In this document: positions 35,625 through 37,523 of the stretch, one piece after another
Layout of the letters: the number at the start of each line of letters is the position of its first letter
Numbering within the stretch: position 1 is the stretch's first letter
Assembly (NCBI GenBank): GCA_026413885.1
Contig: JAOAKA010000002.1
Coordinates: 221,558 to 285,557, forward strand
Direction of reading: 5' to 3'
DNA from: Sulfolobales archaeon
Lineage (GTDB): Archaea; Thermoproteota; Thermoprotei_A; Sulfolobales; NBVN01
Length of the DNA stretch: 64,000 nt
Program-made: the position numbers and the translations under genes
Notes under the pieces: generated by a model
Told to the model about the DNA's origin: nothing
What the model saw: the letters and a program-made list of their open reading frames with translations, nothing else
The model's database searches: none

Positions 35625-37442
35625 TTACTGAGTTCTCACAACTTTAGATAGTCTTCTTGGTTTATCTACGTCTACCCCTTTACGTACAGCTAAGCTGTAG
35701 GCTAGAAGCTGTATAGCTACAGCTATGCTAATAGGCATAAAGTGTCTTTTAAGGCTAGGCACTCTTACCTTAGCGAGAGATGTTTTCTCGTCATTACTTG
35801 TGTGAGATATCAAGACTGTCGGACTCCCGTAATCTAAAACTTCCTCTACGACCTTCAACATATCGCTAGCAGCACCTCGTTCTAGCGGCTCTATGAATAT
35901 CGTGAACATATTTCTATCTAGTATAGCTATAGGACCGTGCCTCAGCTCACCTCCTTCAACTCCTTCAGCGTGTATGTAAGCAGCTTCCTTAATCTTCAGA
36001 GCTCCTTCTAGAGCTAGTGGATATGTTATTCCTCTCGACACCACATAGCCGCTTGAGCAATTCGCAATAGATTTAGACGCTTCTTCTACTTCAAGGCGAA
36101 CTCTATCTAAGTTACCTAGAAGAACTCTATATACTTCCTCCACCTCCCTCCAGACCTCAGAGAGAATTTCGGAAGTAGGCTTTGAGGCTATCTCCGAGAC
36201 AGATCTCGCCAATATATACAGTAGTGTTAGAGTTGAAGTAAATGTCTTAGTAGCTGGAACAGCTAGCTCCGGCCCGGCAGCAATCGATAAGTAGATATTT
36301 GAGAATCTCGTTAATCTTGAGTTTATGTTGTTAGTAACTCCGATTACTGTGGCACCTCTGAGTCTAGCTTCATATGCTGATCTAACTACTTCAGAAGTCT
36401 CTCCAGACTGACTTATAGCTAGCACAGCATCACCAACACCTACACTTTCGAGGTAGTATAGTGGGAACTCTGAAGCACTAACTACAACCGGTACCTTACC
36501 GGCTAGCTCAGAGAGATAGTACGAGAAAACAAATCCAGCGTGAAGACTAGTGCCATTAGCTATTACGAAGAATCTATTACTCTTTAAAGCGATCTTTGAG
36601 GCGAGTTCTAGGTATCTCGCCTGCACTGCGGACGCTGTTCTGAGAATACTGTAGGGAGCTTCATATATTTCGCGCATCATGTGGTGTGGAAATCCATCTA
36701 CATCTACTAGAGATTCTTTAAGGTTGTAAACTAGAAAACTCTTAGTAATAGTGTTCCCATCAATACCTGCGAACCCGATTTTTCCCTCACTACTTATGAA
36801 GATGAGTTCACCAGCTTCTATACTGGTGTACTCTGAGACCATGCTGTATAGACTTGAGAGAGTTGATGAGACAACAACTACATCTCCACCTAAGCCTACG
36901 TATACTGGTTGGTGAGATGTGTAAATAGCTGCTGAACCATCTCTAAATAGAGCTGCTATAGCTACTATACCTTCGAGTCTAGCTACTGCTTCAGCGAAAG
37001 CTCTAGCATAGCTCAATCCTCCTCTCACATAGTCTTCTACTAGGTGGGCTACAAGCTCGAAGTCAGATTTAGAAACTACTCTATGATCTCTGTCTACTAA
37101 CTCTGCGTATAGCTCTTCGTAGTTTCTGATAGCTCCATCACCAGCTACAGCAACAACTTGCTCACAGTCTGTATGTGGATGTGCGTTTCTAGAGTCGGCT
37201 TTACCATGTGTGGAGTACCTAGTGTGACCGAGAACTACACTCATACGCATATCGCTAAGTGAGTACCTAGTGAAGAGTTCGGAGATTGGGCACGAGTCTT
37301 TTACTATACCTACCCTACTGTTCTCTATCCACGCAATTCCACTGCAGTCTTTTCCTCGAAACTCCATTCTGCTTAGCGCTAATTTAGCTAGTGGAAGTAC
37401 GTCGATGTTCTTATTCGATCTGATAAATATAAATCCCCCCAA
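35625..37442 (-). CDS. glmS: GlmS-like glucosamine-6-phosphate synthase with degenerate glutaminase site
   Basis: GHTRYSTHG, NAHPHTD and two SIS domains (SQSGETSEVV; ANGTSLHAG); N-terminus MGGFIFI instead of MCGI. Confidence 0.85.
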   Translation of the reverse strand: MGGFIFIRSNKNIDVLPLAKLALSRMEFRGKDCSGIAWIENSRVGIVKDSCPISELFTRYSLSDMRMSVVLGHTRYSTHGKADSRNAHPHTDCEQVVAVAGDGAIRNYEELYAELVDRDHRVVSKSDFELVAHLVEDYVRGGLSYARAFAEAVARLEGIVAIAALFRDGSAAIYTSHQPVYVGLGGDVVVVSSTLSSLYSMVSEYTSIEAGELIFISSEGKIGFAGIDGNTITKSFLVYNLKESLVDVDGFPHHMMREIYEAPYSILRTASAVQARYLELASKIALKSNRFFVIANGTSLHAGFVFSYYLSELAGKVPVVVSASEFPLYYLESVGVGDAVLAISQSGETSEVVRSAYEARLRGATVIGVTNNINSRLTRFSNIYLSIAAGPELAVPATKTFTSTLTLLYILARSVSEIASKPTSEILSEVWREVEEVYRVLLGNLDRVRLEVEEASKSIANCSSGYVVSRGITYPLALEGALKIKEAAYIHAEGVEGGELRHGPIAILDRNMFTIFIEPLERGAASDMLKVVEEVLDYGSPTVLISHTSNDEKTSLAKVRVPSLKRHFMPISIAVAIQLLAYSLAVRKGVDVDKPRRLSKVVRTQ

Positions 37443-37523
37443 CTCGTTAAACCAAGTACACTTCGAGAGTATTTAAAATATGTGTAGTATCTTAAACTTC
37501 AATAACCTATATTTTCTGGATGA

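Follow-up and report, generated by a model that had tools for sequence, protein, structure and literature searches.

What does a full-length homologue of GlmS do when the glutaminase half of the protein has lost its catalytic residues? This question is raised by a gene in the window, the stretch of 64,000 nucleotides of a Sulfolobales archaeon that was analyzed here, for which an earlier note, made from the letters of the DNA, had described a GlmS homologue with an inactivated glutaminase domain. The gene was found where the note had placed it, at 35625..37442, and lies on the minus strand, which the note had not given. The open reading frame, running from 37442 to 35625 with the stop codon included, is full-length and encodes a protein of 605 aa with a TTG start. 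This protein scored 435.2 bits with the GlmS equivalog model TIGR01135 (cut-off 418.05) and 439.5 bits with NF001484 (cut-off 381), and its nearest solved structures, both by sequence and by fold, were those of GlmS. Since the cut-off of TIGR01135 is passed, this model by itself would misname the protein as GlmS. A class II glutamine amidotransferase-like domain, predicted to be catalytically dead, covers approximately residues 1–240 (36723..37442, minus strand; PF13522 and PF13537), and the synthase/isomerase half, made of two SIS domains (two stretches of PF01380), approximately residues 241–602 (35637..36722, minus strand). The pLDDT was mostly >87 across the amidotransferase-like domain, with a mean of 91 for the model of the protein.

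The start of the gene reads TTG-GGG-GGA-TTT-ATA, and the second codon, GGG (37437..37439, minus strand), places a Gly at the position of the catalytic Cys1, as had been claimed. The second change reported, in the oxyanion-hole motif HNG, was equally confirmed: the motif reads GDG, with Asp102 (37137..37139, minus strand) at the position of Asn98 of E. coli. An upstream in-frame start yielding an N-terminal Cys, raised in the earlier note as a possible objection, was looked for and not found: no ATG, GTG or TTG other than the TTG start precedes the GlmS homology within the open frame. An in-frame TGT does occur six codons upstream (37460–37458), but it cannot provide an N-terminal Cys because it falls within the spacer that follows a TATA-like box and is not preceded by a start codon. 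This putative box, TATTTTAAATA, was recognized by eye approximately 30 bases ahead of the TTG (37470..37480, minus strand), a distance consistent with a leaderless transcript. In the relatives of this protein, the start aligns with this M-G-G and is often an ATG codon.

The residues of 63 paralogues of this type and 18 canonical GlmS proteins were aligned and compared using the E. coli numbering. Position 1 was Gly in 63/63 paralogues and Cys in 18/18 canonical proteins; position 98 was Asp in 62 paralogues and Glu in the remaining one, versus Asn in all of the canonical proteins; and position 74 was Tyr or Phe in the paralogues, versus Trp in 18/18 canonical copies. Arg73, Gly99 and Asp123 were invariant in both groups (Arg73 and Asp123 in 63/63 paralogues), and His77 and His86 were missing from parts of the paralogue clade. 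The window protein retains R73, N84, H86 and D123 (its own R75 and D127 corresponding to R73 and D123), and its SIS half keeps K483, E486, H502 and K600, equivalent to K485, E488, H504 and K603 of E. coli, in agreement with the retention of the substrate-binding motifs and of both SIS domains described previously. Ser303, Ser347, Gln348, Ser349, Thr352, Glu481, Lys485, Glu488, His493 and His504 were invariant in the SIS half of the paralogues, and Lys603 was present in 62/63, the other one being an alignment gap. The paralogue can be told from canonical GlmS by a Pro in place of Ala400 and a Gly in place of Ala496, both near the sugar site, and the site itself has the GlmS motif SQSG and Lys603 and not the SRSG and Arg of GlmD-like proteins. 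The mean pairwise identity of the paralogues was 53% in the SIS half versus 40% in the amidotransferase half, compared with equal values (50 and 51%, respectively) in canonical GlmS. This faster drift of the amidotransferase half is expected if catalysis was lost there while selection continued on the SIS half. The inactivation of the glutaminase domain is well supported by the residues compared.

The genome containing the window also encodes a second GlmS, as the earlier note had proposed to look for; it is intact, with the start VCGI (also given as MCGI) and the motifs HNG and TDTE, and is 32% identical to the paralogue. A second GlmS match of the intact, glutamine-dependent type was likewise present in all 21 paralogue-bearing genomes of a 60-genome set. 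The loss of the Cys is lineage-wide for this paralogue only; a loss common to all of the GlmS proteins of the lineage is ruled out, since the canonical copies keep the Cys. A profile built from the paralogue detected it in 65 of the 159 genomes of the order, always with at least 714 bits, and canonical GlmS reached at most 548 bits, a sharp separation. The paralogue also occurs outside the order in other Thermoproteota, including six genomes of family f35, presumably the Thermofilum lineage, and there the gap in score narrows: a protein of 589 bits in genome G393 has the Gly, and one of 614 bits in G363 (L265; MCGIFG, HNG) keeps the Cys. The latter is nearer the paralogue profile than the canonical copies listed, and possibly stands near the split of the two lineages.

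In a tree built from the SIS columns alone, the 21 paralogues formed one clade with support of 100/99. Being a single clade, they share the substitutions by descent, and the “two independent losses” of the earlier note must be corrected to changes that are both fixed in this group and not separate events in the window gene. The loss of the glutaminase has a single origin, which in the reading favoured here predates the separation of several families of Thermoproteota. Some SIS-only relatives (in G043, G053, G033, G016 and G051) were considered as further-decayed members of the clade and were rejected, as the tree places them elsewhere. No published account of this paralogue was found in the literature searched; in Sulfolobus tokodaii, work on amino sugars reportedly treats ST2186 as GlmS and ST2245 as an epimerase.

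The commonest neighbour of the paralogue was NagA, the GlcNAc-6-phosphate deacetylase, identified by TIGR00221 over its cut-off. It was directly adjacent in 19/62 loci of the order, which span six families (f1, f2, f4, f5, f9, and f11) and show all four relative orientations, a pattern that speaks for a pairing selected repeatedly and against the inheritance of a single operon. In 6/6 genomes of f35, NagA immediately preceded the paralogue on the same strand, beside PTS enzyme I. By contrast, NagA was found beside canonical GlmS in 0/25 loci (flanks of 1.5–2 kb). Over the 159 genomes, 47 contained both genes, nine only NagA, 18 only the paralogue and 85 neither (Fisher p 1e-16, from counts that are phylogenetically non-independent); at the level of genera, in the 60-genome set, the association gave p = 0.001. 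In genome G007, the gene begins approximately 40 bases after NagA, and the cluster also holds a GH84-type beta-N-acetylglucosaminidase, a relative of BadF-type GlcNAc kinases, AnmK and a PBP4B-like serine hydrolase. In the genome of the window, the paralogue is not adjacent to NagA; NagA (detected by HMM) and GH84 share one contig, in a cluster that also includes a PBP4B-like gene, and a candidate BadF-type kinase is present as well.

The association has exceptions in both directions. The 18 paralogue-bearing genomes without NagA include the complete genomes G057, G067, G100 and G110 and the whole genus g10, in five genomes of which (L045–L048, L051) the paralogue adjoins a conserved gene of ~160 aa. 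At least four of the nine genomes with NagA and without the paralogue have SIS-only or PRK02947 candidates instead.

Other genes are also found in these clusters. PTS EI, HPr, EIIA and EIIC are encoded beside NagA and the paralogue in G078 (L217:8270–12420), and PTS components occupy the same position in the f35 genomes (L258–L262, L268), which are crenarchaea; an amino sugar may be taken up by this PTS in the form of its 6-phosphate. Genes for AnmK and for a PBP4B-like serine hydrolase cluster with NagA and GH84 (L039:2518–4868; L217:2444–4757; L087:6436–7575), which in archaea without peptidoglycan suggests the salvage of bacterial cell-wall sugars.

The product of NagA is glucosamine-6-phosphate (GlcN6P), whose usual consumer in salvage is NagB. 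NagB (PF01182) was absent from all of the genomes searched (60 and 45), the Glucosamine_iso domain of PF01182 had no match in the window protein, and no GlmD over the cut-off was detected in 22 genomes. Two other types of SIS protein were observed near NagA. A PRK02947 protein is located beside it in many of these genomes (e.g., L087:4689–5435) and might act as an etherase or as another deaminase. Ten genomes with the NagA–paralogue pair, each closed or near-complete, lack it (G101, G111, G131, G135, G145, G153, G071, G086, G089, and G048). SIS-only proteins with a GlmD-like SRSG motif, located beside NagA or BadF-type kinases (L218:2698–3813, L056:3597–4664, and L057:7989–9050), are likely a second type of deaminase.

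From the linkage to NagA and the missing NagB, we infer that the paralogue is probably a GlcN6P deaminase that retains a dead glutaminase domain. The SIS half would open GlcN6P and, through an enolamine/imine route involving the conserved Glu488, His504 and Lys603, would release fructose-6-phosphate and ammonia, i.e., the sugar chemistry of GlmS would run in reverse with no need for glutamine. The dead glutaminase would neither feed ammonia in nor waste glutamine, and the retained amidotransferase fold would be structural, serving for the closure of the active site or the exit of ammonia. The salvage of GlcNAc would then be complete, from beta-N-acetylglucosaminidase through a kinase or the PTS, NagA and the paralogue to glycolysis. 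All of the members of this route (GH84, NagA, a candidate BadF-type kinase and the paralogue) are encoded in the genome of the window. This direction and this substrate of the reaction, together with the structural role of the fold, are the most likely ones. The dead glutaminase of the earlier note stands, and its three readings (an ammonia-dependent enzyme, a partner supplying ammonia, or a regulatory pseudo-glutaminase) keep some probability beside a fourth that is favoured by the gene context, the deamination of GlcN6P beside NagA.

A variant of this deaminase may also be envisaged, with a low probability, in which the dead glutaminase acts as an amino-acid-sensing lid: Arg73 and Asp123 would grip the backbone of glutamine without cutting it, and glutamine or glutamate would gate the release of ammonia from GlcN6P. 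If true, the breakdown of amino sugars would be tied to the nitrogen status.

An ammonia-dependent GlcN6P synthase, converting fructose-6-phosphate and free NH4+ into GlcN6P for UDP-GlcNAc when glutamine is scarce, is unlikely. The intact SIS catalytic residues, including Lys603, and the dead glutaminase would suit such an enzyme, and the deaminase reaction could in principle run both ways. However, an intact glutamine-dependent GlmS is found alongside in every paralogue-bearing genome of the 60-genome set, and the neighbours are catabolic (NagA, GH84, AnmK, kinases, and PTS) and not GlmM or GlmU. Furthermore, the GlmS of E. coli uses free ammonia poorly.

The deaminase could alternatively be the adjacent PRK02947, leaving to the paralogue another step on amino-sugar phosphates, such as isomerization, epimerization or the handling of MurNAc-derived sugars. 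PRK02947 is beside NagA in genus g1, in G020, G038, G148, G160, G070 and G078 and in several f35 genomes, and G020 carries NagA and PRK02947 without the paralogue. We nevertheless regard this assignment as improbable: PRK02947 is missing in genomes of the Sulfolobaceae type, of f5 and of the Staphylothermus type that keep the NagA–paralogue pair, and AnmK is often found together with a PBP4B-like protein in the clusters containing it, a context that would fit an etherase-like role of PRK02947.

There is even less reason to expect a regulatory pseudo-glutaminase with no catalysis of its own, assembling with the intact GlmS into a mixed complex or sensing amino acids. The constant presence of canonical GlmS in the 60-genome set and the conservation in 63/63 of Arg73 and Asp123, which hold the alpha-groups of glutamine, agree with this role, but a pure regulator would not need the SIS catalytic residues, which are all invariant, and the strong linkage is to nagA and not to canonical glmS. 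Finally, an artefact or a decaying gene (a wrong start codon, a sequencing error or a pseudogene), to which the TTG start and a second codon beginning within a run of G might point, has practically no probability, and a purely local pseudogene or sequencing error is ruled out, by the same substitutions in 63/63 relatives with full-length frames from many assemblies, including closed genomes.

The paralogue, as a probable GlcN6P deaminase, is a candidate for the missing deamination step in the GlcNAc catabolism of archaea of the Sulfolobales/Desulfurococcales type and of the Thermofilum lineage. The whole clade, which standard models would label GlmS, is predicted from its residues to be unable to act as a glutamine-dependent synthase. 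If the proposal is right, a biosynthetic amidotransferase was converted into its catabolic opposite through the loss of its ammonia supply.

Among the known systems, GlmS (TIGR01135, EC 2.6.1.16) resembles the paralogue in the whole domain order, the SIS catalytic residues and the overall fold, in addition to the score above the equivalog cut-off. The paralogue differs from it in the replacements of Cys1 by Gly, Asn98 by Asp, Trp74 by Tyr or Phe, Ala400 by Pro and Ala496 by Gly, and in being a separate clade that exists beside an intact GlmS and is linked to NagA. It corresponds, in nature, to the C1A mutant of E. coli GlmS made in the laboratory (structure 3OOJ). The GlmD of Thermococcales (NF041128; PDB 2CB0, 2DEC) shares the SIS fold, the same proposed reaction and the Arg found at position 503 of most paralogues, but it is a SIS-only GlcN6P deaminase with an SRSG motif and no amidotransferase domain, and the window protein scored 85.5 bits with its model, below the cut-off of 580. 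Similarly, NagB-II of Shewanella (NF046059; PDB 8EOL) has the SIS fold and is paired with a NagA-type salvage, but it is a SIS-only GlcN6P deaminase of ~330 aa, versus the 605 aa of the window protein, which reached 126.1 bits with this model (cut-off 430). Some relatives of the class II amidotransferases, such as beta-lactam synthetase, have, like the paralogue, kept an Ntn-type glutaminase fold without the catalytic Cys, although the partner domain is an ATP-dependent synthetase and not a sugar isomerase.
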